A stretch of DNA of 64,000 nucleotides from positions 256,003-320,002 of the forward strand of contig NZ_FOUD01000001.1 of assembly GCF_900114765.1 (NCBI RefSeq), given 5' to 3'. The DNA is from Halopseudomonas pachastrellae (lineage in GTDB: Bacteria > Pseudomonadota > Gammaproteobacteria > Pseudomonadales > Pseudomonadaceae). The position numbers were made by a program, and so were the translations under genes. The notes under the pieces are model-generated. The model saw only the letters and a program-made list of their open reading frames with translations. It had not been told where the DNA came from and searched no databases. Shown here piece by piece: positions 27,429-62,386 of this stretch; within the stretch, counting starts at the first letter, position 1, and each line of letters opens with the position of its first letter.

Positions 27429-28729
27429 TGAAAAGACTGAGTCAAGTATTTGCGGGCATTATTGCCCTGTGCGTGAGCCAGCTGCTGCTGGCCCAGGATG
27501 CCATTGAAATTACCAAGGGTACCGACAAGGCTACGCCGATTGCGGTAGTACCCTTCGGTTGGCAGGGCAGTGCGCCGCTGCCTGAGGATATGGCGCAGAT
27601 CGTCGGTAATGACCTGCGCAACAGTGGCATGTTTGCGCCGCTGGAGCGTAACAACATGCTGAGCTATCCGGTGCGCGGTGAAGAGATCAATGCCCGCGAC
27701 TGGCGCATGATTGGTGCCGATTACGTGGTAGTAGGGCAGGTGAACAGTACCGGTGGCGAGAACCTGGATCTCACCTATAGTCTGTACAGCGTGGCGCGGG
27801 AAGAAGTGCTGCTGTTGCGTTCGATCAGCGGCACCCGTACCCAGTTGCGCGATATCGCCCATCACCTGAGCGACGAGGTATTCAAGGAGCTGACCGGCAT
27901 CCAGGGCGCCTTCAATACCAAGCTTTTGTATGTTGCGGCTGAGCGCTTCTCGGTCGACAACACCCGTTACACCCTGCAGCGCAGCGATTACGACGGCGCG
28001 CGCGCAGTGACGCTGCTGCAGTCACGTGAGCCGATTCTGAGCCCGAGCTACTCGCCGGACGGTGAGCGCATTGCCTATGTGTCCTTTGAGTCGCGCCGGC
28101 CCGAGATTTATGTGCACTACATTCGCACCGGTCGCCGTGAGCGGGTGAGCAGCTTTGAAGGGTTAAATGGCGCGCCTGCCTGGTCTCCGGACGGCAATCG
28201 CCTGGCCTTTGTGCTGTCGCGAGACGGCAACCCCGAAATCTATGTGATGGAGTTGGCTAGCAAGCAGCTGCGTCGTGTTACCAATCATTTCGCGATTGAT
28301 ACAGAGCCGACCTGGATGGATAACAATACGATCGTGTTCACCTCCGATCGCGGCGGCCGCCCACAAATTTATAAGCAGAGTCTTGGCTCTGGCTCGCCTG
28401 AGCGCCTGACCTTTGTTGGCAACTACAATGCCAACGCCAAGCTGTCCGTTGATGGCCGTACCATGGTTATGGTGCACCGTCAGGAGGGCTACCGTAATTT
28501 TCAGATTGCCACGCAGGATCTTGAGCGCGGGAATTTGAGAGTTTTAACAGAAACGTCGCTGGATGAGTCGCCAACCGTCTCACCCAATGGCGCTATGTTA
28601 ATTTATGCTACCCGTCAACAGGGACGGGGCGTACTCATGCTGGTATCTACAAACGGGCGTGCGCGGTCGGAGATTCCGACACAGTTCACCGACCTGCGCG
28701 TACCTTCATGGTCCCCATACCTGCCATAG
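27428..28729 (+). CDS. tolB: Tol-Pal periplasmic protein TolB
   Basis: A 433-residue periplasmic protein with a signal peptide (cleavage near [10 protein letters not shown]), an N-terminal alpha/beta domain that contacts TolA, and a six-bladed beta propeller that binds Pal (repeated [20 protein letters not shown] and [10 protein letters not shown] units). It links the energised inner-membrane complex to Pal during envelope constriction. Its start overlaps tolA by one base (TGATG). Confidence 0.96.
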
Positions 28730-47816: not shown

Positions 47817-48323
47817 CCGCTTTTGGCCGATTCTGTTGAAAAAGTAGCTGCGATCTCATGCCGTTGGCAAAATTGGGCCATCAGCCAATGCGGGAGTAAG
47901 CAGCATGATGGGGCAGTTACCGGGAGGACAGCATCAGCTGTTCTACTCGTTCAACCTGGAAGACCACGTCCTGGCTCAGCACCTGTTTCGCAGCATCGAC
48001 CAGTGCCTGGATTTCTCAGATCTAGGTTCCTACCTCGCGGATTTCTATAGCCCCATTGGGCGACCCTCGGTTGATCCTGAGTTGATGGTGCGGATGCTCA
48101 TCGTCGGCTACTGCTACGGCATTCGTTGCGAGCGCAGACTGTGTGAACAAGTGCATTTGAATCCGGCCTATCGCTGGCTCTGCCGATTGGGCTTGGAGGA
48201 CGAGGTACCCAACCACTCAACCTTAAGGCTACTTGATGCCGCGATAACCGCTCAGGCGGCAACGGCTGAACAGGTCGTTACTCTCGTTGAACCGAGTTTT
48301 TCAACAGAATCGGCCAAAAGCGG
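47817..48323 (+). mobile_element. Internally deleted IS1182-family element with both terminal inverted repeats
   Basis: CCGCTTTTGGCCGATTCTGT and seven further bases (47817-47843) match the inverse of 48297-48323 without mismatch over 27 bp. Between them is only the N-terminal part of an IS1182-type transposase (47905 onward). The element is 507 bp instead of the ~1.5 kb of a full IS, so it is non-autonomous but could still be moved by a transposase from elsewhere. I see no clear target-site duplication. Confidence 0.75.
47905..48296 (+). pseudogene. IS1182-family transposase, N-terminal part only
   Basis: About 130 residues of the DUF772-type N-terminal domain are intact: IGRPSVDPELMVRMLIVGYC, then RRLCEQVHLNPAYRWLCRLG and EVPNHSTLRLLD. 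The homology stops there; the catalytic DDE half is missing, and the frame runs through the right terminal repeat into unrelated sequence up to 48555. Confidence 0.75.
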
Positions 48324-48626
48324 TCATCTGGTGATTAGGAAACCAGGGAAGATTCAGTTCAATTTCGAATGCCGCTCCACCCGGTTCAAGTGGCACCTAG
48401 GAGCGCTGCAGCATCCGTTGCGCATCACTCACTCCGCGATGGATGCCCTAGGTCGCAGCGCTGGGCCTGGCCCGCAGGGTAAACCCGAGACGAGGTTTTC
48501 CCCGCAGGTCAGTGGCTGCCACGGATTTAGCAGTACCAGTCCAGCCGACAGGTGAGATGGGTTGTTACTAATGCAGGTTCTGTACCTCGCCAAGTGAGAT
48601 CTGCTTCCCTCTGAGTCCTCGAAAAC
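48324..48626. other. Gene-free spacer between the IS1182 remnant and the catabolic module
   Basis: About 300 bp with no credible gene, tRNA or repeat that I can name. The open frame through its first part is only the run-on of the broken transposase. It may be old mobile-element debris. Confidence 0.4.
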
Positions 48627-48653
48627 AAAAAAAAGCCCGCATTGCGCGGGCTT
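48627..48653 (-). terminator. Terminator of the YCF48-RND-DUF1302-DUF1329 operon
   Basis: AAGCCCGC pairs with GCGGGCTT around ATTGC. On the minus strand the hairpin is followed by a long T run. It lies 28 bp after the DUF1329 stop. Confidence 0.85.
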
Positions 48654-48680
48654 AATACGGAGCAGTGTCGGTGTTGCTGA

Positions 48681-50000
48681 TCAGTTCCCGGTGGCGCGCA
48701 TGTGCTGAACGCTGAACATGTCCGGGGTGCTCAGGCTGGGGTCGACCTGGCCCTTGAATTGGCCGGTGGTGCAGTGCATGGCCTGTACGTCGATCATGCT
48801 GAAGCTGTCGTCAATGGATACGCCACTGCCCTGGTTGGCAGGCAGGTGGTGGTCCGGGTGGGCCTGGCCGATGGTGAAGGTTTTCCACATGCTGCCCTTG
48901 CGGTCATAGGCCACGGTGCGCGGGATGGTAAAGGTCTGGGCATCCATGAAGTGCACGCGGCGGGACAGCGGGTGGCTGCCGTCGACCGGGGTGGCCTCCA
49001 CTTCGTAGACCTTGCGCAGCTGCCAAGTGATGTTCGGGAAGCAACCGCCCTTGCCGGAGAACGCTACTACCTGATAACCGTCGCTGTCCTGATGGGTTTC
49101 GGTATCGAGTTGCAGCTCGTTGTGGTTGTAGAAAGGCATGAGCATGTAACGGGTGCCCTTGTAGGCCCAGTTCATGTCGGAAATACGGCCGTTGTAGCCC
49201 TCGAAGTCTTCGATCATCAGATCTGAACCAAGGAAGGCGTCGGTGACCTGACCGGTGGCCAAGCGGCGTACGCGGCGCTGAAAGCCCAGATACAGCCAGG
49301 AGTTGTCGCGCTTGAGGTCGTCCATGGCACGGTGGATGAGCAGCTGGGTATTACGCACATCATGCGGCTCGAGCACCTGCACGTAGATACCGCGGAACAG
49401 CTCCGACGGGTTGGGCGTGATCGCCGGCAGCGGCTCCTGATTGACCCGGCCGGTGAAGTTCAGGAAGTGAAAGTTGAACTTGATGGTGCGCTCAACCTTG
49501 TCGGTGTTCATGTCCCGATACTTCCAGTAGAACGGGGAGATGGCGGCACTGTCGCCCCAGTTGTAGCCGTACTTGTAGTTCCAGGCGAGTTTCTCGCCGG
49601 CACGCGGATCGTTGACATCCGGATCTTCCGGGAATGGCCGTCCGGCCTGCCAGCCATTCAGCTCGCCGGGCTTGGCGCCCAGACTGACGTTGCCGAGACC
49701 CGCCCGGCTGGCTTCCACGTAGTTGGGATGAAGGTCGAAGGAGGTGGTCTCGCCGACCTTGATTTCAACCCAGCCCTGTTCGATGAAGTTGTAGAACGCC
49801 GGGTCGATGATGTCCCGGAACTGGGCAACGTTGGCCTGATTGATGGTCATGCCGGTGGTGAGCCCCGGTGCGCTGGGCGCGGACTCACGATAGGGATAGA
49901 AGCTGTTGTCGACGACATCGGCCTGGGCCTGCGCGGTGCAGGCCATCGCCAGTGCCGTCAGTACACTGGCCAGGATACGGGTGTGCTTGTTGTTGTTCAT
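48681..50000 (-). CDS. DUF1329 periplasmic protein
   Basis: A 439-residue protein with a signal peptide (cleavage near AQAQADVV). The body fits DUF1329, which has a LolA/LppX-like fold predicted to carry lipids or hydrophobic compounds. Visible conserved parts are GYNWGDSAAISPFYWKYRDM, YLGFQRRVRRL and FEGYNGRISDMNWAYKGTRY. It is encoded 13 bp after a DUF1302 gene; the two families occur together with an RND transporter in many degraders of aromatics, alkanes and steroids. Last gene of a four-gene operon. Confidence 0.88.
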   Translation of the reverse strand: MNNNKHTRILASVLTALAMACTAQAQADVVDNSFYPYRESAPSAPGLTTGMTINQANVAQFRDIIDPAFYNFIEQGWVEIKVGETTSFDLHPNYVEASRAGLGNVSLGAKPGELNGWQAGRPFPEDPDVNDPRAGEKLAWNYKYGYNWGDSAAISPFYWKYRDMNTDKVERTIKFNFHFLNFTGRVNQEPLPAITPNPSELFRGIYVQVLEPHDVRNTQLLIHRAMDDLKRDNSWLYLGFQRRVRRLATGQVTDAFLGSDLMIEDFEGYNGRISDMNWAYKGTRYMLMPFYNHNELQLDTETHQDSDGYQVVAFSGKGGCFPNITWQLRKVYEVEATPVDGSHPLSRRVHFMDAQTFTIPRTVAYDRKGSMWKTFTIGQAHPDHHLPANQGSGVSIDDSFSMIDVQAMHCTTGQFKGQVDPSLSTPDMFSVQHMRATGN

Positions 50001-50013
50001 GTTGTTCTCCGAA

Positions 50014-51903
50014 TCAGAAGCTGTAGCGGACGGTCAGTTGCAGTTCGTCCTGGTTTTTGGCCATGCCCAGTGGGCCGGCGCGGAAGCGACCCAACGGCTC
50101 ATAGCCGGTCAAGCCCAGGCTGAAACCTTCGGGGTGGCCCGTGTACCCGGCGGTGAACGGGTCCCAGGGGTTACAGGTGCGGCAGTCATCGAACTTGTTG
50201 GCACCGCTGCCGACTTTCAGGTTTGCACCACCGATGACGCGCAGGTTGTCGCTGACCAGCCATTCGATGCTTGGTGCGATGGTGGTGGCACCGGCGCGGA
50301 AGTCATGCGCAGCCAGTAGTTGCGGGCTAAGCCGGTCATTCATCCACCAGCCCTTGACCAGCAGGGTGCCGGTCCAGTTGGCCTTCCAGTCCGGTATGCC
50401 TACCCGGCCCAGGAGACGCTGCTCACTCTGGTACTCGTGAATGTGCTGGCCGAAGATCTGGCCCGAGAACAGGAAGGCGCGGCGGCTGTTAAGCCATGGT
50501 ATGAAGATGTTCTTGTCGGCACCGACCACATAGCGCGTGACGTTGCTCTCCGAGAACAGTCTGGTCTGGATGGTGTTGGCGAACTCTTCGCCTTCGGTGT
50601 GAGCGAGTTCGACGCGGAACACGGTATCCAGACCCTGGGCGTAGTAGTCCAGCGAGCCGCCGATCAGGTTGACGCGGGGGAAGTGGATATCGAATGCGAT
50701 GAGGGATGGCCAGATTCCGGTGACGCCGGTGAATGCATTTTGCGCCGGGATACCGCCGCGCAGCGAAGGCAACTGGCTGCGGTAGGTGAGTGCATTGAGC
50801 GAGAAGCCAACGTCGCGGTACACACCCTCAAGCTTGATACCGAACTGGGTGTTGGACAAACTCCACGCGGGCATGTGGGCTTTGCGGATGCCGATCTGGC
50901 CGGGGCCGAAGTCGGTGGCAATGTTACCGTTGGCGAAATTAGCGACGGTGCCGCCGTACTCCCAGAGTGTGTTCATGCCGCGGAAGAAGCAACCCGCGTC
51001 GAGAATCACGTTGGGCGAGCCGCATTGGCCGATGTTGTGCGGGCGGAAGCGGTCGAAGTTCCAGACGAAGGATACGTTCAGGTCGTCGAAGATGTCGCCA
51101 GCGCCCATGCGGTAGTCGGATTTGAGGATCCACATCGGGATGCGGATGTCTTCCAGCTCGTCGTAAATATTATTGCGCGAGAAGTCGACCGGGTTGATGA
51201 CGTCCAGCACCCGGAACAGGTCGGTGCGGCCCCAGACGACCTGCTGCTTGCCCAGGCGGGTGCTGAGGATGTGGCCGTTGTCGAAGCTGTAGTCGAAGTC
51301 GACATACAGTTCGCGGATGAAGTCGAGCCGGTCATTGAACTCGGAGAAGCGCAGTTCGTTGGTGTCCTGGTCCAGATAGCCGTTGATACAACCGCGGCTA
51401 TCGACATCACAAGGCCGCACCGGCACGCCGAAGGCGACGCCGCCGTTGGTGCTGTGCAGGTTCTCGCCGAGCACAATCATGCCCTTGTTGGGGTGATCGG
51501 CCAGATTGAAGGTGTTGGGCAATTGCAGACCGCCACCGTGGGGGACACTGGTGCTGCCGCCTAAGCCGCTGGTGTTCTCCAGACGAATGCTGCCGCCGGC
51601 TCTGCGGCCGTATTCGTTGCTGTTGAGGTCGTAGACCCCGTCGTAGCTGCCACGAAATACGCCGTTCCAGGAAACGTTGCTGAAGATGCCGAGTTCGCCG
51701 AACTCGCGTTCAGCGTTAATCTGCACCGTGTTGCGAAATTTCGACAGACCGACGGAGTCGCGCACATAGGTAGCGTTTTCATAGAAGCCGGTGATCTCCG
51801 TTTCCTCACTGGCAATCGCGGCGCTAAGCGGGCTCAGCAGCAGCCCGGTGCCGCTCGCCAGAGCGAGGCTCCAGCGTCCGAGGCCTTTTATTTTTGTTTG
51901 CAT
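50014..51903 (-). CDS. DUF1302 outer-membrane protein
   Basis: A 629-residue protein with a signal peptide (cleavage near AAIASEETE). The DUF1302 features are a start in GFYENATYVRDS, repeated amphipathic beta strands with aromatic ends, the RLGKQQVVWGRTDLFRVLDV segment, and a C-terminus ending with an aromatic (TVRYSF), the signal for outer-membrane insertion. It is likely a beta-barrel channel for hydrophobic compounds, partner of the DUF1329 protein and the RND transporter. Confidence 0.85.
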   Translation of the reverse strand: MQTKIKGLGRWSLALASGTGLLLSPLSAAIASEETEITGFYENATYVRDSVGLSKFRNTVQINAEREFGELGIFSNVSWNGVFRGSYDGVYDLNSNEYGRRAGGSIRLENTSGLGGSTSVPHGGGLQLPNTFNLADHPNKGMIVLGENLHSTNGGVAFGVPVRPCDVDSRGCINGYLDQDTNELRFSEFNDRLDFIRELYVDFDYSFDNGHILSTRLGKQQVVWGRTDLFRVLDVINPVDFSRNNIYDELEDIRIPMWILKSDYRMGAGDIFDDLNVSFVWNFDRFRPHNIGQCGSPNVILDAGCFFRGMNTLWEYGGTVANFANGNIATDFGPGQIGIRKAHMPAWSLSNTQFGIKLEGVYRDVGFSLNALTYRSQLPSLRGGIPAQNAFTGVTGIWPSLIAFDIHFPRVNLIGGSLDYYAQGLDTVFRVELAHTEGEEFANTIQTRLFSESNVTRYVVGADKNIFIPWLNSRRAFLFSGQIFGQHIHEYQSEQRLLGRVGIPDWKANWTGTLLVKGWWMNDRLSPQLLAAHDFRAGATTIAPSIEWLVSDNLRVIGGANLKVGSGANKFDDCRTCNPWDPFTAGYTGHPEGFSLGLTGYEPLGRFRAGPLGMAKNQDELQLTVRYSF

Positions 51904-51947
51904 TGGCAGTTCCTCATTTCAGTGGGGTAGGGCAGGACGAGTCGAGC

Positions 51948-54383
51948 TCAACCTTGCCCCGTTATCAGCGCCCCGACAGGCTGCGGGGCACTGGCTGCCG
52001 GGCGATCGGCATGCAGGATGCCATCCTCGTCGGCGTAGACATCGGTGATGAAGCGCGGGCGCATCACCAGCACCCAGGAGGGCACCAGCAGCATGGCGGC
52101 CAGACCGTTGATGACGATCATCACGCACAGCAGCATTGCCGCGTCGGACTGGAAGCGAAGGTCCGACAGCAACACCCACATGACGATGCCGGCCATCAGG
52201 GTGACGGCGGTGAAACTGATGGCCATGCCGGTGGTGGCGATCGCCTGGCGAACGGCATCGACCAGCCTGCCGCTCTTGGCCATTTCCTCGCGGATGCGGT
52301 CCATCATGTAGATTGAGTAGTCGATGCCCACACCAATGCCGACGGCGATGACCGGCACTGTGTTGATGTCGATGTTGAGTCCGGCCAGGCCCATGTAGGC
52401 GTAGGTAAGGGTGGTCGCGAAGGTCATCGCCAGCAGCATCATCAGCCCGGCGTGCCAGGAGGTGTAGAACAGCATCACGAAGGCGAAGATCAGCAGAAAA
52501 ACCAGCGGCAGCACGACCAGATTGGTTTCGAAGGCCGACTCGTTCATGGCCGCGGCAACGCCGAGGGTGCCGCCGGCCAGCCGGATGGTCAGGCCTTCAA
52601 CCTGGCCGTCGTGTTCGGCGATCCATTCGCGCGCCATGTGAATGGCACGACGGATGGTCTCGCCTTGGCGATCCTTGTAGTAGAACACCAGGTTGGCGAT
52701 GCGATCGTCGGTATCGTTGAACTCGTTCAACGCCCCGGGAATCGGGCTCGACGCCATATAGGTAAACATCAGGCCGCCGACGTAGTCCGCTTCATGGGGG
52801 ATCTGGAACCAGCGTGGATCGTCGTTGTGCATCAGCCGGTTGACCTGCTTGATCAGGTCCGGCAAACCCTTGCTGCCACCGACCGCCGGATCGGCCAGCA
52901 TGTGCGCCTGCAAGTCCTGCAGGGCGCGCAGTACCTCGGGCTTTTTCAGCCCGCCTTTCTCGGCGTGTTCGGCGATGATGTACAGCTCTTCTGAGCCGGG
53001 GAAGCGGTCATTCACTTCCTTGGACGACAGGTTGTAGTCGTGGTCGGGGTAGAGGATGGGTGAACCCGGTTCCGAGTCGCCGATACGCACCTGGGAGGCG
53101 GCGACCAGACCCAGGGCAATGGTCAGCGCGGCAGCGCCAAGCACGACCCGCGCCGCGCCCGGACGGCTGACGGTGCGGGCGCAGGTGGCGCCGATATGGC
53201 GCAGGAAGGTTTCCTTGATCTCGGGGTTTTTCGGCGTCGGCAGGATCGACAGCAGCAGTGGTACGCCAATCAGCACGGTCAGGATGACGGTCATCGCCCA
53301 CAGCGAGGCATACACGCCCAGCTTGGTATTCAGGGCAATGGAGCCGATGGCGATCAGCGACAGGCCTACAGCGTCGGAGACCACGCCAAGCGAGCCCGGG
53401 CGGAACAGGCTGTCAAAGGTCGCCCTGGCCGCTTTCGGGCCGTTGCCAAGGACACGCACCTCGGCGTAGTAGCGCTCGACCAGTTGCACCCCGTGGCTCA
53501 TCGCCCGCGCGGCAATCAGGAAGGGAATAACCAGCCCCAGCGGATCCAGGTTGAAGCCCAGCAGGCTGATGATGCCCAGGCCCCAGATGGTCGAGATCAG
53601 CACGCCGCCGAGGGGAATCAGCACCCCGTAGGCCTTGCGGAAATGGAATACCAGCAGCGACAGCATGATCAGCACGGTAAAGATGAAGATCTGCAGAATC
53701 TGGTCCATGTAGGTGTAGGCCCAGCCCACCAGCACCGGCTGGCCGGTGGCATACAGGGTGACGCCATTGCCGCTTTCCGCCTCGCGCAGGGCCTGCAACT
53801 GGGCGAAGGTGGCGGCGTAGTCGAGCTGGCCTTCGATCAGTTGCGCCTTGACCAGCGCCATCTTGAAGTCGGAGGACACCAGCGGGCCGTAGATGCGCGG
53901 GTTGGCGGCTACATCCGCGCGCATCTGCGCCAGTTGCTCATCGCTGTAGTTGCCGTTTTGCGGGTCAAAGTAGGGCTCGGAGTTGATCGAGCCCACCTCG
54001 GTCAGCCAGATCTTGCGCGAGTTGCGGTGGGTGACGCTGGTCACCAGGTTGTGGTTGACGCCGGGCAGGTTGTCGACGGCCTGGGTGACCCGGTCAATGG
54101 TGGCCAGGTTGGCGTTGGAGAAAATGTCACCGTTGTCGAAGGCAACTCCCACGACCAGCACGTTGGCACCGCCGAAGCTGTCCTTGATGCTGTTGTGCAG
54201 CTCGATATAGGGGTGTTTCTGCGGCAGCAGATCGGCAAAGTCGGTATAGATTTTCAGCCCCGGTATGCGCAGCGCAAACAGCAGGGTCAGCAGGGCGATG
54301 GCGGCCAGCACCTTGCGTGGATTGTTGAACATCCACACCTCAAGACCGTGCATGGCATGGGTAAAACGATGTAATCCAGACAT
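51948..54383 (-). CDS. RND superfamily (MMPL-type) transporter
   Basis: An 811-residue inner-membrane protein with the two-fold MMPL/RND plan: a first helix at residues ~25-42, a large periplasmic loop (residues ~45-220), helices ~225-390, a second loop (residues ~430-620) and a second helix bundle to the C-terminus. Markers are RIPGLKIYTDFADLLPQKHP and INTVPVIAVGIGVGIDYSIY. Related proteins move hydrophobic molecules (hopanoids, lipids, mycolates). With the DUF1302 channel, the DUF1329 carrier and a YCF48-like lipoprotein it forms a putative trans-envelope system; direction (uptake or export) is not known. Confidence 0.88.
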   Translation of the reverse strand: MSGLHRFTHAMHGLEVWMFNNPRKVLAAIALLTLLFALRIPGLKIYTDFADLLPQKHPYIELHNSIKDSFGGANVLVVGVAFDNGDIFSNANLATIDRVTQAVDNLPGVNHNLVTSVTHRNSRKIWLTEVGSINSEPYFDPQNGNYSDEQLAQMRADVAANPRIYGPLVSSDFKMALVKAQLIEGQLDYAATFAQLQALREAESGNGVTLYATGQPVLVGWAYTYMDQILQIFIFTVLIMLSLLVFHFRKAYGVLIPLGGVLISTIWGLGIISLLGFNLDPLGLVIPFLIAARAMSHGVQLVERYYAEVRVLGNGPKAARATFDSLFRPGSLGVVSDAVGLSLIAIGSIALNTKLGVYASLWAMTVILTVLIGVPLLLSILPTPKNPEIKETFLRHIGATCARTVSRPGAARVVLGAAALTIALGLVAASQVRIGDSEPGSPILYPDHDYNLSSKEVNDRFPGSEELYIIAEHAEKGGLKKPEVLRALQDLQAHMLADPAVGGSKGLPDLIKQVNRLMHNDDPRWFQIPHEADYVGGLMFTYMASSPIPGALNEFNDTDDRIANLVFYYKDRQGETIRRAIHMAREWIAEHDGQVEGLTIRLAGGTLGVAAAMNESAFETNLVVLPLVFLLIFAFVMLFYTSWHAGLMMLLAMTFATTLTYAYMGLAGLNIDINTVPVIAVGIGVGIDYSIYMMDRIREEMAKSGRLVDAVRQAIATTGMAISFTAVTLMAGIVMWVLLSDLRFQSDAAMLLCVMIVINGLAAMLLVPSWVLVMRPRFITDVYADEDGILHADRPAASAPQPVGALITGQG

Positions 54384-54392
54384 GTCGGTTCC

Positions 54393-55388
54393 TCAGTCAG
54401 CGCTGGCCGCCAGGGCCTTTGGGAGTTGAATATTCAGCAGCGTGCCGCGCCCGCCGGCCGCCAGCAGATGCTGCTCGGGCACGAGCAGACCGGCACGCAG
54501 ATACAGGGGCTGATTGGGCGTGGCCAGCGGCTGCCAGCGGCTGCCGTGCAGGCTGAGTACGGTGGTGTTTTCGCCGAGGGCATAGAGTGCGTTGCCATCA
54601 CTGACAAAGCCGAAGATCGGCGCTTCGGTGCCGCTGGGCTGCTTGCGCCAGGTTTCTCCGGCATCGCGGGTGTGCCAGATAAAGCCGTTCAAGCCACCAA
54701 CCCAGCCTTCATTGAGGTCGCGGAAGAAGCTGGCGTGGGGGTAGAACTCGTCAGGCAGGCTGCCGGCCGGCTCCCAGCTGATCCCGGCGTCGCGGCTTTG
54801 ATAGACCAGCCCGTATTCGCCGGTTACCACGGCGTGCTCGGCGTCGATGAACTGCAGGGTGGTGAGAATGGCATCCTCATCCAGACTGGATTCGTTCCAG
54901 CTGGCGCCCTGGTCTGCACTGTGCTGCAGGGTGCTGAAACTGCCGACCGTCCACCAGCTGCCGTCCGGCGCACAGGCGGTGGCCATCATCTGCTCGCTGC
55001 TGGGCAGTGAGTGGCTGCGCCACTGGCTGGCATCCGGGCTGCCGTGCCAGAGCTGGTTGTCGAAACTCAGGGCGATGAAACTGCGGTCCGGACACACATC
55101 CAGATCGACCAGACTCATGCTGGTCGGTAGCGGCTGGCGTTGCCAGCTGGTGCCCTGATCACTGCTGCGCAGCACCACGCCATCGTTACCGACGATGAGG
55201 GTGGTTTCACCATTGCTGGCCATGGCCTGGTAGAAGTCGGTGCGTTGCAGGGCTTCGCTGTGCTGGCGGTCTACTGCGTCCAGATTCAGCGGCGCCTCGC
55301 AGCCGGTCAGGAACATTGAGCAAGCCAGTCCGGCAAGCAGATGCCGACGACCCGGCGCACCTCGGAGAGGTGTTGGTATGTTAAACAT
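54393..55388 (-). CDS. YCF48/BNR-repeat lipoprotein
   Basis: A 331-residue protein with a lipoprotein-like signal ending MFLTGC. The rest is a beta propeller of the Ycf48/Hcf136 type, with repeated Asp-box-like motifs SSDQGTSWQRQPL, SADQGASWNESSL, SRDAGISWEPAGS and TRDAGETWRKQP. Ycf48 proteins assist photosystem II assembly in cyanobacteria; in heterotrophs the family is found beside RND transporters and is thought to help in assembly or substrate handling. First gene of the operon, 9 bp before the RND gene, under a sigma-54 promoter. Confidence 0.85.
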   Translation of the reverse strand: MFNIPTPLRGAPGRRHLLAGLACSMFLTGCEAPLNLDAVDRQHSEALQRTDFYQAMASNGETTLIVGNDGVVLRSSDQGTSWQRQPLPTSMSLVDLDVCPDRSFIALSFDNQLWHGSPDASQWRSHSLPSSEQMMATACAPDGSWWTVGSFSTLQHSADQGASWNESSLDEDAILTTLQFIDAEHAVVTGEYGLVYQSRDAGISWEPAGSLPDEFYPHASFFRDLNEGWVGGLNGFIWHTRDAGETWRKQPSGTEAPIFGFVSDGNALYALGENTTVLSLHGSRWQPLATPNQPLYLRAGLLVPEQHLLAAGGRGTLLNIQLPKALAASAD

Positions 55389-55443
55389 GGTATGTCACCA
55401 ATCAGGGTTTTATTTTTATTCACGGAGCGACAAAAGCTCGGTA

Positions 55444-55458
55444 GCAAGCGCTGTGCCA
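55444..55458 (-). promoter_or_regulatory. Sigma-54 (-24/-12) promoter of the YCF48-RND-DUF1302-DUF1329 operon
   Basis: On the minus strand the sequence is TGGCACAGCGCTTGC, an exact TGGCAC-N5-TTGC match. The predicted transcription start is near 55432, about 45 bp before the ATG of the YCF48-like gene. An IHF consensus and a DmpR-like palindrome lie upstream. Confidence 0.85.
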
Positions 55459-55475
55459 GCGTTTCCGTATAATTA

Positions 55476-55488
55476 CAACTGACTGATT
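55476..55488 (-). promoter_or_regulatory. IHF-binding consensus upstream of the RND operon
   Basis: AATCAGTCAGTTG on the minus strand fits WATCARNNNNTTR at every fixed position. It lies between the -24/-12 promoter and the DmpR-like palindrome, where DNA bending is needed for activator contact. Confidence 0.6.
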
Positions 55489-55554
55489 GATAACGGTTTT
55501 TTATCGGGTGGTGGTTTTTTTGCGGTAATGCAGCTGCGTTTCGGGCAGGGTAAT

Positions 55555-55570
55555 TTGATCAATTGATAAA
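55555..55570 (-). promoter_or_regulatory. DmpR/XylR-type upstream activating site of the RND operon
   Basis: TTGATCAATTGATAAA differs by one base from the perfect palindrome TTGATCAATTGATCAA typical of DmpR/XylR-class sites. It lies at about -123 to -138 relative to the predicted start of the RND operon, within the normal range for such activators, and just downstream of dmpR itself. Confidence 0.7.
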
Positions 55571-55689
55571 AGTGCAGGCGGGGCTTGCTGATTTGGTAAA
55601 GCGCGGGTTCGGACTGGGCTGCTCTGACGGGTGAGAGGGCGCTCCTTGCCCGGTGCAAGGAGCTATTCGGGCGGGTGGCCGCTGCGGGG

Positions 55690-57405
55690 CTAGTGCTGTT
55701 CGCTCGCTTCCAGAATGCCGGACTTCTTCAGCCGATATGCCAGCGCCGGGCGTGTCAGCCCGAGCCTCCTGGCGGCCTCGGATACGTTTTGGCCGGCGTC
55801 ATCCATGGCGCGACGCATGAGGCTGTTTTCGACCTCTTCCAGGCTGACGCCAGAGGTCAGAATCTGCGATACCCAGTCGCCTCCGGTGGCGATGTCGCTG
55901 CCATGGACGATGGTGCCGAAATCGTTCAGACGGTCATCGCAGGATGTCTCGATAATCTCCGGGCTGACTGCGAACAGCGCGTCCTGGCTGATGCTCTCGT
56001 TGCTGTCGGTCAGAATCACGCCGCGTTCGATGACGTTTTCCAGTTCGCGGATATTGCCTGGCCAGTGGTAGTTCAGGCATAGCTCCAGCGCCTTGTCCGA
56101 CAGCCCCAGGGTGCGCTTCTGGTAGGCATGGTGCGACTTGCGCAGGAAGTGCTCGGCCAGCAGCGGAATGTCCTCCTGCCGCTCCCGCAGTGGCGGAATC
56201 TGAACCGGGAACACATTCAGGCGGTAGTACAGGTCAGCTCGGAAGCGTCCCTTTTCGACGGCATCGGCCAGGCTTTCGTTGGTGGCGGCAATCACCCGCA
56301 CATCGATCTTGCGGGTATGCGAATCACCCACCCGCTCCAGCTCGCCTTCCTGCAGCACGCGCAGCAGGGTGGCCTGGGCTCTTGGCGGCAGTTCGATCAC
56401 CTCGTCAAGAAAGATGGTTCCGCCATTGGCCCGTTCAAAACGGCCTGCACGCGCCTGGTGAGCCCCGGTGTAGGCGCCTTTCTCAACGCCGAACAGTTCT
56501 GCCTCGATCAGGTCGGGCGGGATCGCGGCGCAGTTGACGGCCACGAACGGCTTGTCGGCGCGCTCGCTGCGCTGATGCACACTGCGGGCAATCACCTCCT
56601 TGCCAACGCCGGTCTCGCCCAGCAACAGCACCGAGACCTTGCCCTTAGCGGCCTTGTCGATGGTTTTGCAGACCTTTTTGTAGGCGCCCGACTGGCCAAT
56701 GCCGTAGTACTGACCTTCCTGCTGATCCAGGTCGTTTTGCAGCGAACTCAGCCGCGATTGCAGGTCGTACAGCTCCTCGATAATGGGGTCTTCCTTGAAG
56801 TAGCTTTTGAAATGCTCCGCGTCATCCCATTCCTCCGCCGGCTTGCCGACGATTAGGCAGCGCTCATCGCCGCAACCGCGGCAGCTGACTTCGCGGTAGA
56901 TGATTTCACGCCGCATGAATGAGGAGCTGTAGGCACAGGCATAGCCCAGCAACGACCAGCAGGCAGGTTCATGCATCAGCCCCAATTCCGTCTGGCAAAT
57001 CTCGACCTCGAACGAGTCTACCCACTCCAGTTCGCCATAGAAATGGCCCTTCTGGTGGTCAAGATCAATCTGGATTGGCTTGACCTTGACCATGCCCTTG
57101 AGTGAATGCAGCTGCGGACCGACGAGGAAGATATCGAGCTCGTTGTTGTGTGGCCTGAGTTTGCGAGCCAGCTCGGCATCCTTGAGTCCCGACTGGTAGC
57201 CCATGCGCAGAAAGAAGCCCTTGGCGCGCTCGATACCGAGGGTGTTTACCAGCTCACGCCGGAAGGTGGCCATGGCGGACACCTGCATCAGCAGCATGCG
57301 CTGTTCGGCAAACCAGATTTTGCCGTCAGTGCTCTGAAAACGGATCTGCTCGGTCAGATCGTGATAGTCCGAATACTGCAGGTGCGGCTTGTAGCTGGTC
57401 GCCAT
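55690..57405 (-). CDS. dmpR: Phenol-sensing sigma-54 activator, DmpR type
   Basis: A 571-residue NtrC-class activator. The N-terminal XylR_N/V4R sensor covers residues ~1-210. His100 and Trp128 match the phenol-contacting residues known from DmpR/MopR, and Cys149, Glu172, Cys175 and Cys183 match the zinc site of that family. The AAA+ domain (~240-480) has Walker A GETGVGKE, a GAYTGA sigma-54-contact loop and [14 protein letters not shown] Fis-type HTH closes the protein ([20 protein letters not shown]). It activates the divergent dmp operon when phenols bind and, by site evidence, probably the RND operon downstream too. Confidence 0.95.
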
Positions 57406-57579
57406 GATGCATTAGCCCCTGTTGTTTTTGTTGGGCGGTTTGCGCTGTCTCACAACATGCTGTGACGCGCTGAGTGTCTCGGCATCTTGACGCTGTCTGC
57501 GGTTAAAAATCAACCAGATGATTAATTGGCCAAGGGGGCGTCGCGCTGGGTGAGCATTTGCTGACATGCGCAGCGCTGT

Positions 57580-57595
57580 TTCATCAAATCATCAA
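57580..57595 (+). promoter_or_regulatory. DmpR/XylR-type upstream activating site of dmpK
   Basis: TTCATCAAATCATCAA matches the inverse of the TTGATCAATTGATCAA palindrome at 13 of 16 positions. It lies at about -163 to -148 of the predicted dmp start, like the known arrangement of the dmp Po promoter. A second, weaker half-site cluster lies near 57508-57525. Confidence 0.55.
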
Positions 57596-57674
57596 ATTCC
57601 CCCCGTGATTCCCTCCGCCGCCGAGCGCTTACGGGGATGCGGCTTATCAATGCGTAAAAATAAAAAGTCTTAAA

Positions 57675-57687
57675 TATCAATTATTTG
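57675..57687 (+). promoter_or_regulatory. IHF-binding consensus upstream of dmpK
   Basis: TATCAATTATTTG fits WATCARNNNNTTR at every fixed position, in an AT-rich tract between the activating site and the -24/-12 promoter. Confidence 0.65.
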
Positions 57688-57716
57688 AGGTCTTATTTCG
57701 CTCCGTTCTCGCTGGC

Positions 57717-57732
57717 TGGCATAGCCGTTGCT
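57717..57732 (+). promoter_or_regulatory. Sigma-54 (-24/-12) promoter of the dmp operon
   Basis: TGGCATAGCCGTTGCT has the -24 GG and -12 GC elements with correct spacing and closely resembles the Po promoter of Pseudomonas dmp genes. The predicted start is near 57743, ~27 bp before dmpK. Confidence 0.88.
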
Positions 57733-57769
57733 GTAGGTCTGCTCACAACAACAAGCACGGTGAAGCCCT

Positions 57770-58021
57770 ATGAGCCAGACCGCCCAAAGCTTTGACCAGA
57801 TGACCCGCTGGATTCGGGTACGCAGCGAACCGGACGCCCGCTTTGTCGAGTTCGATTTTGCCATCGGTCACCCCGATCTGTTCGTCGAACTGGTGCTTCC
57901 GAAAGACGCTTTCGTTCAGTTCTGCAAACACAACAAGGTTGTTCACATGGATGAGGCCATGGCCCGTCAGGTTGACGAGGACATGGTGAAGTGGCGCTTC
58001 GGCGAGAAAGGCCAGCGCTGA
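57770..58021 (+). CDS. dmpK: Phenol hydroxylase assembly protein DmpK
   Basis: An 83-residue protein of the phenol hydroxylase subunit P0 family (FVEFDFAIGHPDLFVELVLP, then MDEAMARQVDEDMVKWRFGE). DmpK is not a catalytic part; it helps the diiron centre of the oxygenase form. It is the first gene of the operon, which fits the known dmpKLMNOP order. Confidence 0.93.
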   Translation: MSQTAQSFDQMTRWIRVRSEPDARFVEFDFAIGHPDLFVELVLPKDAFVQFCKHNKVVHMDEAMARQVDEDMVKWRFGEKGQR

Positions 58022-58066
58022 TTCCGATCCGACACACCCCCACAAAAACAAAACGGTACGGTTGTC

Positions 58067-59068
58067 ATGAGCATTGAAATCAAAACCAACTCGGTGGAGC
58101 CGATTCGGCACACCTACAGCAACATCAAGCGCCGCTTTGGCGACAAGCCTGCCTCGCGCTATCAGGAAGCCAGCTACGATATCGAGGCGGCCACCAACTT
58201 TCATTACCGCCCCCTGTGGGACGCCGAGCACGGTCTGAATGACCCGACCCGCACCGCCATCCGCATGCCCGACTGGTACGCGGTAAGCGATCCGCGCCAG
58301 TTCTTTTACGGTGCCTACGTGCAGAACCGCGCCAAGATGCAGGAAGCCGCCGAGCACAGCTTCAGCTTCTGCGACAAGCGCAATCTACTGACCCGCATGC
58401 CTGAGGCGCTGCAGGAAACCCTGCTGCGTCTGCTGGTGCCGCTGCGCCATATGGAGCTGGGCGCCAACATGAACAACAGCAGCATCGCTGGCGATGCGGT
58501 GGCCGGTACCGTGACCCAGCTGCACATCTATCAGGCCATGGACCGCCTGGGCATGGGCCAGTACCTGTCGCGCATTGCCCTGCTGATCGATGGCAGCACC
58601 GGCGAGGCACTGGATCGCTCGAAGACCTACTGGATGGAAGACGCTCTCTGGCAGCCGCTGCGCAAGCTGGTTGAGGACAGTTTGGTGGTCAAGGACTGGT
58701 TCGAGCTGACCGTACTGCAGAACCTGCTGATCGATGGCCTGCTGTACCCGCTGATGTATCACAAGTTCGATCAATGGCTGGCGGAGCAGGGGGCCGAGGA
58801 TGTCTCGATGCTCACCGAGTTCATGCGTGACTGGTACGCCGAATCCTGCCGCTGGGTCGACGCCATGCTCAAGACCGTGCGCGCGGAAAGTGATGCCAAT
58901 GCCGAGCAGTTGCAGCGCTGGATTGCTCACTGGCAGCCGCGGGTCATCGGTGCCCTGCAGCCGCTCGCCAACGCCAGCGTCAGTGTCGCAGCGCTGGACG
59001 AGGTGGTTGGCCAATTCGACCAGCGGCTGAAGAAGCTCGGCCTGGTCGCCGAGGAGGTCGCCGCATGA
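58067..59068 (+). CDS. dmpL: Phenol hydroxylase oxygenase beta subunit DmpL
   Basis: A 333-residue protein homologous to the beta subunits of bacterial multicomponent monooxygenases. It starts with IRHTYSNIKRRFGDKPASRY and carries PDWYAVSDPRQFFYGAYVQN and PLRHMELGANMNN. The ferritin-like fold lacks the metal ligands of DmpN; it forms the (LNO)2 hydroxylase dimer core. The next gene overlaps by 4 bp. Confidence 0.95.
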   Translation: MSIEIKTNSVEPIRHTYSNIKRRFGDKPASRYQEASYDIEAATNFHYRPLWDAEHGLNDPTRTAIRMPDWYAVSDPRQFFYGAYVQNRAKMQEAAEHSFSFCDKRNLLTRMPEALQETLLRLLVPLRHMELGANMNNSSIAGDAVAGTVTQLHIYQAMDRLGMGQYLSRIALLIDGSTGEALDRSKTYWMEDALWQPLRKLVEDSLVVKDWFELTVLQNLLIDGLLYPLMYHKFDQWLAEQGAEDVSMLTEFMRDWYAESCRWVDAMLKTVRAESDANAEQLQRWIAHWQPRVIGALQPLANASVSVAALDEVVGQFDQRLKKLGLVAEEVAA

Positions 59069-59337
59069 GCCAGCTCGCCTTCATCGTTTTTCAGGACAAC
59101 GACAACGCCCGCTATCTGGTAGAGGCGATGGCCGAAGACAACCCTCACGCCGAAGTGCAGTACCACCCGGCCATGATCCGCATCCAGGCTGAAAAGCGCC
59201 TGGTAATCAACCGTGCCACGGTTGAGGAAAAGATCGGCCGTGAGTGGGACGTGCAGGAGATGCTCCTGGACGTGATCAGCATCGGCGGCAACGTGGATGA
59301 GGATGATGACCACTTCATCCTCGAGTGGAAAAACTAG
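59065..59337 (+). CDS. dmpM: Phenol hydroxylase regulatory (effector) protein DmpM
   Basis: A 90-residue cofactor-free effector of the MmoB/DmpM family (AFIVFQDNDNARYLVEAMAE, EWDVQEMLLDVISIGGNV). It binds the hydroxylase and is required for efficient oxygen activation. Starts within the dmpL stop (ATGA); dmpN starts 10 bp after its end. Confidence 0.95.
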   Translation: MSQLAFIVFQDNDNARYLVEAMAEDNPHAEVQYHPAMIRIQAEKRLVINRATVEEKIGREWDVQEMLLDVISIGGNVDEDDDHFILEWKN

Positions 59338-59347
59338 GAGACCCCTC

Positions 59348-60892
59348 ATGGCTACCAAGAACAAGAAGCTCAGCCTCAAAGACAAGTACCAGTACCTGAC
59401 TCGCGACATGGCCTGGGAACCGAGCTACCAGAAGAAGGAAGACATCTTTCCCTACGAGCGCTTCGAGGGGATCAAGATCACCGACTGGGACAAGTGGGAA
59501 GACCCCTTCCGCCTGACCATGGATGCCTACTGGAAGTATCAGGCCGAGAAAGAGAAGAAGCTGTACGCCATCTTTGACGCCTTCGCCCAGAACAACGGCC
59601 ACCAGAATATTTCCGATGCGCGCTACGTCAACGCCCTCAAGCTGTTTCTGACCGGTGTTTCGCCGCTGGAATACGGCGCGTTTCAGGGCTACGCCAAGGT
59701 TGGCCGGCATTTCAGCGGTGCCGGTGCGCGGGTAGCCTGCCAGATGCAGTCGATTGACGAGCTGCGTCACGTGCAGACGCAGCTGCACGCCATGAGTCAC
59801 TACAACAAGCACTTCAACGGCCTGCACGATTTTGCCCACATGCACGACCGGGTCTGGTTCCTGTCGGTGCCCAAGTCGTTCTTTGACGACGCACGCTCGG
59901 CTGGCCCGTTCGAGTTTCTGACGGCCATTTCGTTCTCGTTCGAATATGTGCTGACCAACCTGCTGTTCGTGCCGTTCATGTCCGGCGCGGCTTACAACGG
60001 CGATATGGCCACCGTGACCTTCGGCTTCTCGGCGCAATCGGACGAAGCCCGTCACATGACCCTGGGCCTTGAGGTCATCAAGTTCATGCTCGAACAGCAC
60101 GAAGACAACGTGCCGATCGTGCAGCACTGGATCGACAAGTGGTTCTGGCGCGGTTACCGCCTGCTGAGCCTGGTCAGCATGATGATGGACTACATGCTGC
60201 CCAACAAGGTGATGTCTTGGAAGGATGCGTGGGAGGTCTATTACGAGCAGAACGGCGGCGCCCTGTTCAAGGATCTGGAGCGTTACGGCATTCGCCCGCC
60301 CAAGTATCAGGACGTGGCCAACGACGGCAAGAACCACATCAGCCATCAGCTGTGGTCGACCTTCTATCAGTACAGCCACGCCACCAACTTCCATACCTGG
60401 CTGCCCAGTGCAGCGGAAATGGACTGGCTGTCCGAGCAGTACCCGGACACCTTCGACAAGTACTACCGCCCGCGTTTCGAGCACTGGCAGAAGATGCGGG
60501 ACAAGGGTGAGCGTTTCTACAACAACACCCTGCCGCAGCTGTGCCAGGTGTGTCAGGTGCCGGCCCTGTTCACCGAGCATGGCGATCCGACCCAGCTGAG
60601 CCTGCGCACACTCGAGCACGAGGGCGAGCGTTATCACTTCTGCTCGGATGGCTGCTGCGACATTTTCAAGCACGAGCCCGAGAAGTACATCCAGTCCTGG
60701 TTGCCTGTGCACCAGATCTATCAGGGCAATTGCGAGGGTGCAGACGTCGAGACCGTGGTCTCGAAGTACTACCACATCAATATCGGCCAGGACAATTTCG
60801 ACTACGTGGGGTCGCCGGATCACCAGCGCTGGCAGGCGATCAAGGGCAATCGGCCGCTCGGGGGCGATGACGACTCCCGGGACGCCGCCTGA
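59348..60892 (+). CDS. dmpN: Phenol hydroxylase oxygenase alpha subunit DmpN
   Basis: A 514-residue diiron oxygenase subunit that hydroxylates phenol to catechol. Two Glu-x-x-His motifs bind iron, IDELRHVQTQ and SDEARHMTLG. The C-terminal YHS-type region (YHFCSDGCCDIFKHEPEKYI) contains extra Cys residues. The ATG at 59348, after TAGGAGACCC, is preferred over one at 59297 that lies inside dmpM. Length and motif order match known DmpN/TouA-class enzymes. Confidence 0.97.
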   Translation: MATKNKKLSLKDKYQYLTRDMAWEPSYQKKEDIFPYERFEGIKITDWDKWEDPFRLTMDAYWKYQAEKEKKLYAIFDAFAQNNGHQNISDARYVNALKLFLTGVSPLEYGAFQGYAKVGRHFSGAGARVACQMQSIDELRHVQTQLHAMSHYNKHFNGLHDFAHMHDRVWFLSVPKSFFDDARSAGPFEFLTAISFSFEYVLTNLLFVPFMSGAAYNGDMATVTFGFSAQSDEARHMTLGLEVIKFMLEQHEDNVPIVQHWIDKWFWRGYRLLSLVSMMMDYMLPNKVMSWKDAWEVYYEQNGGALFKDLERYGIRPPKYQDVANDGKNHISHQLWSTFYQYSHATNFHTWLPSAAEMDWLSEQYPDTFDKYYRPRFEHWQKMRDKGERFYNNTLPQLCQVCQVPALFTEHGDPTQLSLRTLEHEGERYHFCSDGCCDIFKHEPEKYIQSWLPVHQIYQGNCEGADVETVVSKYYHINIGQDNFDYVGSPDHQRWQAIKGNRPLGGDDDSRDAA

Positions 60893-60909
60893 GCTTTCAC
60901 AACACCCGT

Positions 60910-60929
60910 CCCCGACCGACAGGTCGGGG
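60910..60929 (+). other. Intergenic hairpin between dmpN and dmpO
   Basis: CCCCGACC pairs with GGTCGGGG around GACA, with no T run. It is more likely an mRNA-stability or processing structure than a terminator, since the operon continues. Confidence 0.45.
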
Positions 60930-60954
60930 CGACAACAAGAACAAGGTGATCTCC

Positions 60955-61314
60955 ATGAGCGTTAAAGCCCTTTATCAATACACCGCAGAGCCGCGTGACC
61001 TGCAGGCCAACTTCAATGGCATGCAACTGGTCTATCTGTACTGGCCGAACCATCTGCTGTTCTGTTCGCCGTTTTCCTTTCTAGCGTCGCCCGAGATGAG
61101 CATGGGCGAGTTCTGCGAGGAGGTTGTGCGCCCGGCCATTGCCGCCCACCCGCAGGCCGCCGGCCTGGACTTTGGCCAGGCCCAGTGGCAGCTCAACCAC
61201 CAGCCGTTCAGTCCGGACCCTGCGCTCAGCCTGGCGCAGAATGGGGTGACGCACAAAGCGATGCTGACCTTGCGCGTGCCCGGCCTTGACGGTATCGCCG
61301 GCGGCGTAGTCTGA
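60955..61314 (+). CDS. dmpO: Phenol hydroxylase oxygenase gamma subunit DmpO
   Basis: A 119-residue small subunit of the (LNO)2 hydroxylase. It starts SVKALYQYTAEPRDLQANF and carries YLYWPNHLLFCSPFSFLA. I chose the ATG at 60955, eight bases after AAGGTGAT; an in-frame GTG three codons earlier is less likely. It lies 10 bp before dmpP. Confidence 0.93.
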   Translation: MSVKALYQYTAEPRDLQANFNGMQLVYLYWPNHLLFCSPFSFLASPEMSMGEFCEEVVRPAIAAHPQAAGLDFGQAQWQLNHQPFSPDPALSLAQNGVTHKAMLTLRVPGLDGIAGGVV

Positions 61315-61324
61315 GGAGGCGGTC

Positions 61325-62386
61325 ATGAGCTACACAGTCACGATTGAGCCGACCGGCGAACAGATCGAAGTCGAGCAAGACCAGACCATCCTCCAGGCCG
61401 CGCTGCGTCAGGGCGTCTGGCTGCCGTTTGCCTGCGGCCACGGCACCTGCGCGACCTGCAAGGTGCAGGTGCTGGAGGGCGACGTGGATATCGGCGAGGC
61501 CTCGCCGTTCGCGCTGATGGATGTCGAGCGCGACGAAGGCAAGGTGCTGGCCTGCTGCGCCACGGTGCAGAGCGATGTGACCATTGAAGCCGATATCGAT
61601 GTGGATGAGGACTTCGAGGGCTATTCGGTAGAGGACTACCAGGCCACGGTCAGCGAACTGCTGCCACTGTCACCGACCATTTTGGGCGTGCGCCTGAAGC
61701 TGGATCGTGCGATGCAGTTTCAGGCTGGCCAGTACATCAACCTGGAACTGCCGGGCATTGAGGGCAGCCGTGCGTTCTCGCTGGCCAATCCGCCGAGCCG
61801 GCCGGACGAGGTCGAGCTGCATGTGCGGTTGGTCGAAGGTGGCGCAGCCACCGGCTACATCCATCAGCAACTGAAGGTGGGTGATCAGCTGTCGCTGTCC
61901 GGACCCTACGGCATGTTCTTTGTACGCAACTCGCAGCAGGGCGATCTCATCTTTATTGCCGGCGGCTCGGGGCTGTCCAGCCCGCAGTCGATGATTCTCG
62001 ACCTGCTGGAACAGGGCGACAGCCGCCAAATCACCCTGTTTCAGGGCGCACGCAACCGCAGCGAGCTCTATAACGCCGAGCTGTTCGAGCAACTGGCTGC
62101 CAGCCACGCCAATTTCACCTATGTACCGGCGCTCAGCCAGGCCGCCGATGACAGCGAGTGGCAGGGTTTCCGTGGCTATGTGCACGACGCTGCCAAGGCG
62201 CACTTTGACGGCCGCTTTGCCGGTCACAAGGCCTACCTGTGCGGACCGCCGCCGATGATCGATGCGGCGATTACCGCCCTGATGCAGGGCCGGCTGTTTG
62301 AGCGCGACATTTTTATGGAGCGTTTCTACACCGCCGCCGACGGCGCAGAGGACACCCAGCGCTCCGCGCTATTCAAGCGGATCTGA
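61325..62386 (+). CDS. dmpP: Phenol hydroxylase reductase DmpP
   Basis: A 353-residue NADH reductase that delivers electrons to DmpN. The N-terminal plant-type [2Fe-2S] domain shows LPFACGHGTCATCKVQV and VLACCATV (four Cys ligands), the FAD domain has SRAFSLANPPSRP, and the NAD domain has FIAGGSGLSSPQSMI and KAYLCGPPPMIDAAI. Complete and of standard length. A 99-bp gap separates it from dmpQ, with no gene and no clear promoter. Confidence 0.97.
   Translation: MSYTVTIEPTGEQIEVEQDQTILQAALRQGVWLPFACGHGTCATCKVQVLEGDVDIGEASPFALMDVERDEGKVLACCATVQSDVTIEADIDVDEDFEGYSVEDYQATVSELLPLSPTILGVRLKLDRAMQFQAGQYINLELPGIEGSRAFSLANPPSRPDEVELHVRLVEGGAATGYIHQQLKVGDQLSLSGPYGMFFVRNSQQGDLIFIAGGSGLSSPQSMILDLLEQGDSRQITLFQGARNRSELYNAELFEQLAASHANFTYVPALSQAADDSEWQGFRGYVHDAAKAHFDGRFAGHKAYLCGPPPMIDAAITALMQGRLFERDIFMERFYTAADGAEDTQRSALFKRI

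Follow-up and report, generated by a model that had tools for sequence, protein, structure and literature searches.

Does a phenol-responsive regulator switch on, besides the phenol hydroxylase operon on one side of its gene, a second operon for a transport machine on the other side? This question is raised by a locus of Halopseudomonas pachastrellae that lies within an analysed stretch of 64,000 nt (from here: the window; contig NZ_FOUD01000001.1, G000:C44:256003-320002) of a 3.93-Mb genome. On the minus strand, the gene of a DmpR/XylR-type sigma-54 activator (dmpR, 55690..57405) is followed by genes for a YCF48, an MMPL/RND, a DUF1302 and a DUF1329 protein (from here: the quartet); on the plus strand, the phenol hydroxylase genes start at 57770. 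Phenol-bound DmpR would, with a probability of roughly 85%, control both the phenol hydroxylase and the quartet operons. We consider this joint switch very probable because the two operons share one type of control region and because many relatives keep it despite another gene order. The first-pass annotation had spoken of two divergent operons, which is correct for the phenol operon; the RND operon, however, is located downstream of dmpR and is co-directional with it.

Both sides of dmpR carry a -24/-12 promoter, a pair of upstream activating sequences (UAS) about 30 bp apart at 100-200 bp upstream of it, and a binding site for IHF in between, i.e. the layout of a DmpR-type promoter. On the RND side, the proximal palindrome TTGATCAATTGATAAA (55555-55570) has one mismatch to TTGATCAATTGATCAA, which we take to be the canonical XylR/DmpR palindrome, and a weaker distal UAS (55585-55600; 5 mismatches in near-identical relatives) lies 30 bp away. 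These are followed on the minus strand by AATCAGTCAGTTG (55476-55488), an exact match to the IHF consensus WATCARNNNNTTR, and by the sigma-54 promoter TGGCACAGCGCTTGC (55458-55444; TGGCACAGCGCTTGCT when given as 55443..55458). On the phenol side, the proximal UAS TTCATCAAATCATCAA (57580-57595, 3 mismatches) and a distal UAS with the core TGAGCATTTGCTGA (57550-57565) precede, on the plus strand, the exact IHF consensus TATCAATTATTTG (57675-57687) and the sigma-54 promoter TGGCATAGCCGTTGCT of the phenol hydroxylase operon (57717-57732). A sequence check thus found palindrome, IHF consensus and promoter on each side exactly where the first-pass annotation had placed them, including an RND-side palindrome one base from perfect. 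Its description of a shared layout at similar distances holds for the three elements, but the distances from palindrome to TGG, 112 bp on the RND side and 137 bp on the phenol side, are similar rather than equal.

Could the likeness of the two control regions be a coincidence? This possibility was rejected on genome-wide and simulated counts, and we regard its probability as negligible. Palindromes with up to three mismatches occur twice in the window at 0.08 expected, a number that 1/100 shuffles reached. Genome-wide there are 23 such places, the one at 55555-55570 being the sole one with a single mismatch and the best match to the canonical site. The promoter pattern TGGCAY-N5-TTGC was found at 36 places in the genome (23 and 13 in two scans, against 9 and 5 for reversed control patterns), just two of which have a palindrome of at most three mismatches no more than 1 kb away, one on either side of dmpR. 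A composite scan of promoter plus palindrome over both strands of the 64 kb returned exactly these two matches, no more even at 2 promoter and 4 palindrome mismatches, and at a stricter setting there were 0 in 1.28 Mb of Markov-simulated sequence. In favour of coincidence, the exact IHF consensus is over-represented in the whole window anyway (10 vs 1.56 expected), and because exact matches are this common, we dropped IHF as strong evidence by itself. A third TGGCAT-N5-TTGC in the window, at 28419-28433 on the minus strand, has no UAS-like palindrome nearby.

The first-pass annotation had suggested checking whether YCF48-RND clusters of other genomes are preceded by the same set of sites, and the outcome was clearly positive. 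Named loci were fetched by RND alignment alone (the best 80 of 236 relatives); 78 were usable, L092 and L163 being dropped with less than 250 bp upstream of YCF48. With a composite defined by at most one promoter and four palindrome mismatches, 59/78 loci carry one ahead of YCF48, 47 of them at three palindrome mismatches or fewer. Markov regions yielded 1/3900 at four and 0/3900 at three palindrome mismatches and the opposite strands 0/78, which again argues against coincidence. Among other overlapping windows of the same loci, 65/10451 contained a composite, 60 of those 65 before dmpK/dmpL. The titles of composite-bearing records include Halopseudomonas, Pseudomonas, Stutzerimonas, Marinobacter, Paraglaciecola, Neptuniibacter, Marinobacterium, Pontibacterium and Colwellia; within the best 80 of 236, the named record with the closest RND homologue, apart from the window's own genome, is Halopseudomonas aestusnigri VGXO14, with 100% identity over residues 1-810. 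The loci of 17 distant RND paralogues (L014-L030) gave 0 composites, a soft control because these ~5-kb loci do not always include the region before YCF48.

In two stretches, L135 (Neptuniibacter marinus; 1-1435) and L077 (1-1773), a further composite was observed on the minus strand at the other side of dmpR, the L135 site being one of the five matches that do not precede dmpK/dmpL. It precedes genes for a 2Fe-2S ferredoxin and a catechol 2,3-dioxygenase-like protein; the phenol regulon would here comprise three operons.

Since dmpR lies upstream on the same strand, transcription could also read through into the RND operon. Expression of the quartet mainly by this route, with a minor or residual sigma-54 promoter, is nevertheless improbable. 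A simple scan found no strong terminator between dmpR and the quartet. On the other hand, promoter and palindromes are kept where dmpR is not directly upstream: the gene order of the window recurs in 41 of the 59 composite loci, the hydroxylase is located upstream on the same strand in 7 and downstream in 2, and 9 have none in the stretch, two of the 9 being on short contigs. These 18/59 loci without the window's order include two on short contigs, L095 and L098, that have dmpR upstream. Moreover, the intergenic DNA around the kept sites is otherwise poorly alignable. A simple scan of 48000-58100 found 0 sigma-70 promoters for the quartet (2.5 expected by shuffles), which is weak evidence.

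The dmpR-YCF48 spacers of 16 loci, 12 of the genus and 4 of other families, were aligned. They are largely unalignable save for two palindromes about 30 bp apart, the promoter and the leader. TGGCA-N6-TTGCT is kept in 15/16 of them, and the conserved YCF48 leader has an A-rich stretch and GGTGAC ahead of the start. On the phenol side, TGGCA-N6-TTGC is present in 17/17 aligned relatives. Most of these 17 also display a third conserved element, AAAAATCAACCAGATGATTAA (57505-57525 in the window), upstream of both phenol-side palindromes; this element looks like a UAS half-pair and could act for dmpR itself.

The spacing of the sites is regular as well. A second palindrome lies 29-32 bp from the first in 51/59 composite loci, and the distances from the proximal palindrome to the promoter fall at 112-116, 124-128, 134-138, 146 and 156-157, with one at 131. 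On the RND side, the 18 distinct distances are phased at 10.5 bp, roughly one turn of the helix, with a vector length R of 0.593, as high as in 0/5000 random sets; this test used 54/62 loci with a promoter (pair mismatches at most 9) and treated distinct distances as independent, which flatters the result. An IHF consensus within one mismatch is located between palindrome and promoter in 51/59 loci, compared with 13.3 in shuffles.

Within the genus, RND orthologues of at least 84% identity and DmpR orthologues occur in the same 13/37 genomes. In 12 of these the two genes are neighbours on one contig, and in G012 a contig end separates them; all 37 genomes also have RND paralogues, with identities of about 25-34%. 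Among 390 genomes of the order, 24 have the RND protein (E 1e-180 or better), 34 DmpR and 35 the hydroxylase. Of the 24 RND-bearing genomes, 22 possess the hydroxylase (Fisher p 7.8e-25), the two others being 75% and 83% complete, and 13 genomes have the hydroxylase without RND. The quartet is thus accessory to the hydroxylase but not universal.

Longer stretches, fetched for 20/24 RND-bearing genomes of the order, contained hydroxylase genes in 16/20 cases. Hydroxylase and quartet flank dmpR on either side in L068-L072, the quartet follows dmpP by a few hundred bp in L074, L077 and L084 and by several kb in L075, L076, L080, L085 and L086, and it is divergent from dmpK in L081-L083. A promoter with at most one mismatch precedes YCF48 in 14/20 stretches, and in 12 of these a palindrome of at most four mismatches is plausibly spaced from it; the -12 element of L081-L083 is a weaker TTGG. 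If the site belonged to dmpR whatever sits downstream, it should also occur where the quartet is missing. This candidate was rejected on 12 stretches that have dmpR and/or hydroxylase genes and lack a close quartet (11/13 of the hydroxylase-positive, RND-negative genomes plus G109). They held 0 composites downstream of dmpR and 7 composites that were all before dmpK; among them, only L169-L172 (f20/f23) are close comparators, because in the other families the quartet is not usually found behind dmpR. Therefore, the second composite goes with the quartet. The association extends to a conjugative plasmid of Pseudomonas veronii T1, where genes for a sigma-54 regulator, YCF48 and an RND protein of 80% identity accompany those of the hydroxylase and the meta pathway (L168, NZ_CP142043.1 256643-275089; the RND gene is not in the plasmid gene table). 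Its YCF48 gene is preceded by TGGCACAGGCGTTGCT and, 156 bp upstream, by a 3-mismatch palindrome; an exact match to the IHF consensus and an A-rich leader are present as well.

The regulator itself has every domain of the XylR/DmpR subfamily (XylR_N, PF06505, 6.1e-37; V4R, PF02830, 2.5e-07; Sigma54_activat, PF00158, 9.3e-71; HTH_8, PF02954, 3.5e-10), and residues 17-479 match CapR (PDB 6iy8) at 818.6 bits. Its H100 and W128 align with H106 and W134 of MopR, presumably the phenol-contacting residues of that protein, and its loop reads GAYTGA where GAFTGA is usual. The NCBIfam MobR model NF041906 scored 719.4 bits, and since this is below the cut-off of 999, we consider the protein related to MobR without filing it as such. 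The genome also contains rpoN.

A sigma-54-dependent promoter could respond mainly to another enhancer-binding protein, e.g. a second DmpR/TbuT-like paralogue or a stress regulator. Some relatives indeed have further DmpR-like genes (L077, L154), and XylR/DmpR-type regulators have similar UAS sequences (PMC6449761). However, the window's genome has one single DmpR match at E 1e-150 or better, which adjoins the RND-side site, and the same composite marks hydroxylase promoters, as in the 60/65 matches mentioned above. Control mainly by another activator is therefore very unlikely.

Several observations weigh against joint control by DmpR. In the window, the phenol-side palindrome reaches only 3-mismatch quality, and with dmpR 301 bp away on the strand of the quartet, read-through could supply some expression. 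The composite is missing at the thresholds used in 19/78 named loci, and in 13 of these the stretch contains a gene for hydroxylase or a DmpR-type regulator; among the 19 are Porticoccaceae-like loci (L158, L161, L162, L166) as well as Amphritea and Oceanobacter, and these are real exceptions. Of the stretches from the order, L071 and L080 show a promoter but no palindrome within four mismatches, and L085-L087 lack both; L002 has an altered -12 element in its dmpR-YCF48 spacer. An exact IHF match was found in only 9/59 loci (0.67 in shuffles). Phasing is weaker on the phenol side (0.401, as high in 128/5000 random sets), and because related loci are not independent we take phasing as supporting rather than decisive. 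In the four Porticoccaceae-like loci, the promoter is a shared variant whose TGGCAC is combined with TTGG instead of TTGC, and a palindrome-like site lies 136-155 bp upstream; this variant may work and have been missed by our thresholds.

The DNA sequences establish that the sites exist, that they are conserved and that they are associated with the quartet. The claim that phenol, through DmpR, induces the quartet together with the catabolic enzymes gains support, as a prediction, from the 59/78 loci, the 18/59 in other gene orders, the UAS spacing and the phasing. The two operons flanking dmpR would form one phenol regulon. Upstream of each operon, phenol-bound DmpR would occupy the two palindromes with their spacing of about 30 bp, IHF would bend the DNA between palindromes and promoter, and DmpR would activate sigma-54 RNA polymerase at -24/-12. 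Phenol hydroxylase would then be made from one operon, and the RND pump, the YCF48 lipoprotein, the LolA-like periplasmic carrier and the outer-membrane protein from the other. This AmeABCD-like machine would most likely rid the envelope of phenol or related hydrophobic compounds as long as the pathway is active.

A further layer of control is suggested by the leaders. Overlapping AANAANAA motifs, which are A-rich and of the Hfq/Crc type, are located in the leaders of YCF48 (55410..55420, minus strand) and dmpR (57422..57432, minus strand), and AACAACAA, a motif of the same type, in that of dmpK (57747..57754, plus strand). This motif is the one described as the target of Hfq/Crc in Pseudomonas (PMC5429807). 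AANAANAA occurs in the 60 nt past -12 in 47/59 composite loci, compared with 6.5 (highest 14) in shuffles and with 254/1250 stretches ahead of mechanically called open reading frames in the same loci. The motifs of the window are candidates, and some of the relatives' genera may use Hfq/Crc differently. Since the dmpR, dmpK and YCF48 leaders all carry such motifs, a lock at two levels, DmpR and Hfq/Crc, would follow. We see an even chance that marine and soil Gammaproteobacteria often combine the hydroxylase with a dedicated trans-envelope machine as a core part of the DmpR regulon rather than a chance neighbour, its promoter kept with helical phasing through rearrangements, and that catabolism and transport are locked together by phenol through DmpR and by carbon status through Hfq/Crc. 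Near the predicted start of the YCF48 transcript, GTCGCT at 55426-55431 forms part of a conserved leader string that reads CAGTCGCTTT or CAGCCGCTT in relatives.

What, then, does the second operon encode? The first quartet gene (54393..55388, minus strand like the others) specifies a predicted YCF48/BNR-repeat lipoprotein of AmeC type (Pfam PSII_BNR 4.1e-17) with the lipobox LTGC near its N-terminus, a pattern also present in YCF48 of 70/78 relatives. It is followed, with gaps of 9, 44 and 13 bp, by an AmeD-type RND/MMPL inner-membrane transporter (51948..54383; Pfam MMPL 1.2e-21), whose best NCBIfam match is HAE3 TIGR00921 (122.6 bits, under the model cut-off of 351.9), by an AmeA-type DUF1302 protein with a C-terminal F (50014..51903; PF06980 3.4e-42), whose outer-membrane location is predicted, with AmeA as a precedent, and by an AmeB-type, LolA-like periplasmic DUF1329 protein (48681..50000; PF07044 5.7e-73, LolA_like 9.9e-16). 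A terminator-like hairpin with 9 pairs and a T run lies 3' of DUF1329 (48633..48653, minus strand); the scanned region has 10 such sites compared with 7.8 expected. The divergent genes dmpK-dmpP (57770..62386, plus strand) were identified by Pfam (Phenol_hyd_sub and Phenol_Hydrox, the first two) and NCBIfam (the others), with labels given by gene order. Just past the quartet's hairpin, a DUF772 transposase-type fragment was noticed at 47905-48555, and two distant RND paralogues (29% identity) stand in tandem elsewhere in the genome (G000:C21:70396-76455).

The cassette combines DUF1302, DUF1329, YCF48-like and MMPL/RND genes, the types that make up AmeABCD of Castellaniella defragrans (DUF1302, DUF1329, the YCF48-like COG4447 and an RND protein that is HAE3 there; PMC6394551). 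The protein families and the AmeABCD literature fit the earlier proposal of a dedicated trans-envelope system. In contrast to the quartet, AmeABCD handles monoterpenes instead of phenol and its order is A-B-C-D instead of YCF48-RND-DUF1302-DUF1329; the parts of its account available to us describe no DmpR-type control. Deletion of AmeABCD lowered monoterpene tolerance and raised dye accumulation (PMC6394551). We somewhat favour an AmeABCD-like exporter, i.e. phenol-induced export or envelope protection, over uptake, because this best-studied relative by composition behaves as an exporter. A less probable, though appreciable, alternative is that joint control is right and the quartet imports or traffics a substrate or functions in envelope repair. 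As their family names indicate, LolA-like and MMPL proteins are used in lipid transport too, an AmeB insertion reduced growth on monoterpenes (PMC6394551), and a DUF1329 deletion impaired growth of Delftia on phenanthrene, as told in PMC13101534; the AmeABCD deletion phenotype speaks against this alternative and for export.

The joint regulon proposed here is clear and testable for a widespread, poorly understood four-protein envelope system. We know of no agreed function for DUF1302 and DUF1329, and a link of both to phenol as the one inducer and DmpR as the one regulator would provide a handle for assays of phenol or catechol movement. Traits of phenol tolerance or degradation, and strains for DmpR-based biosensors or bioremediation, may include a co-inherited transporter, which was found on a conjugative plasmid too.

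The arrangement resembles the DmpR/Po and XylR/Pu systems in its UAS pair, IHF site, -24/-12 promoter and aromatic-responsive activator with a phenol hydroxylase operon. The classic descriptions of these systems concern catabolic operons; here, a second DmpR operon would serve a transporter. Closer in concept is the EtpR system of Aromatoleum aromaticum EbN1, where the gene of a sigma-54 regulator sits between a catabolic and a putative solvent-efflux cluster; both clusters have sigma-54 motifs and require the regulator and an aromatic inducer, and deletion of EtpR abolishes both (PMC4630880). In contrast to our locus, EtpR belongs to an anaerobic p-ethylphenol pathway of a betaproteobacterium, and its efflux genes are comparable to the quartet in their described role; the parts of its account available to us contain no analysis of UAS or IHF sites. 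Suvorova and Gelfand (2019, PMC6449761) predicted that genes of COG4447, COG1033, PF07044 and DUF1302 belong to the AphR/AphS/AphT regulons of Betaproteobacteria, and they described XylR/DmpR-type sites that occur in pairs, 29-42 nt apart. Those regulons are predictions confined to Betaproteobacteria, and the portion of the text consulted assigns the four genes to AphS or AphT, with AphR in a table row alone. In Zoogloea, DUF1302 and DUF1329 genes were reported near phenol hydroxylase and a sigma-54 regulator (PMC7012976). Because of EtpR and AphR/AphS/AphT, the concept of joint catabolic and transport control was already known, and the novelty supposed by the first-pass annotation is reduced to that extent. 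For DmpR control of the quartet in Gammaproteobacteria, we found no paper in the open literature, with subscription papers and supplements outside the search. New here are the Gammaproteobacterial DmpR branch with its own conserved promoter, the survival of that promoter where the genes were rearranged, the pairing and phasing of the sites, and the shared leader motif, all as read from DNA.

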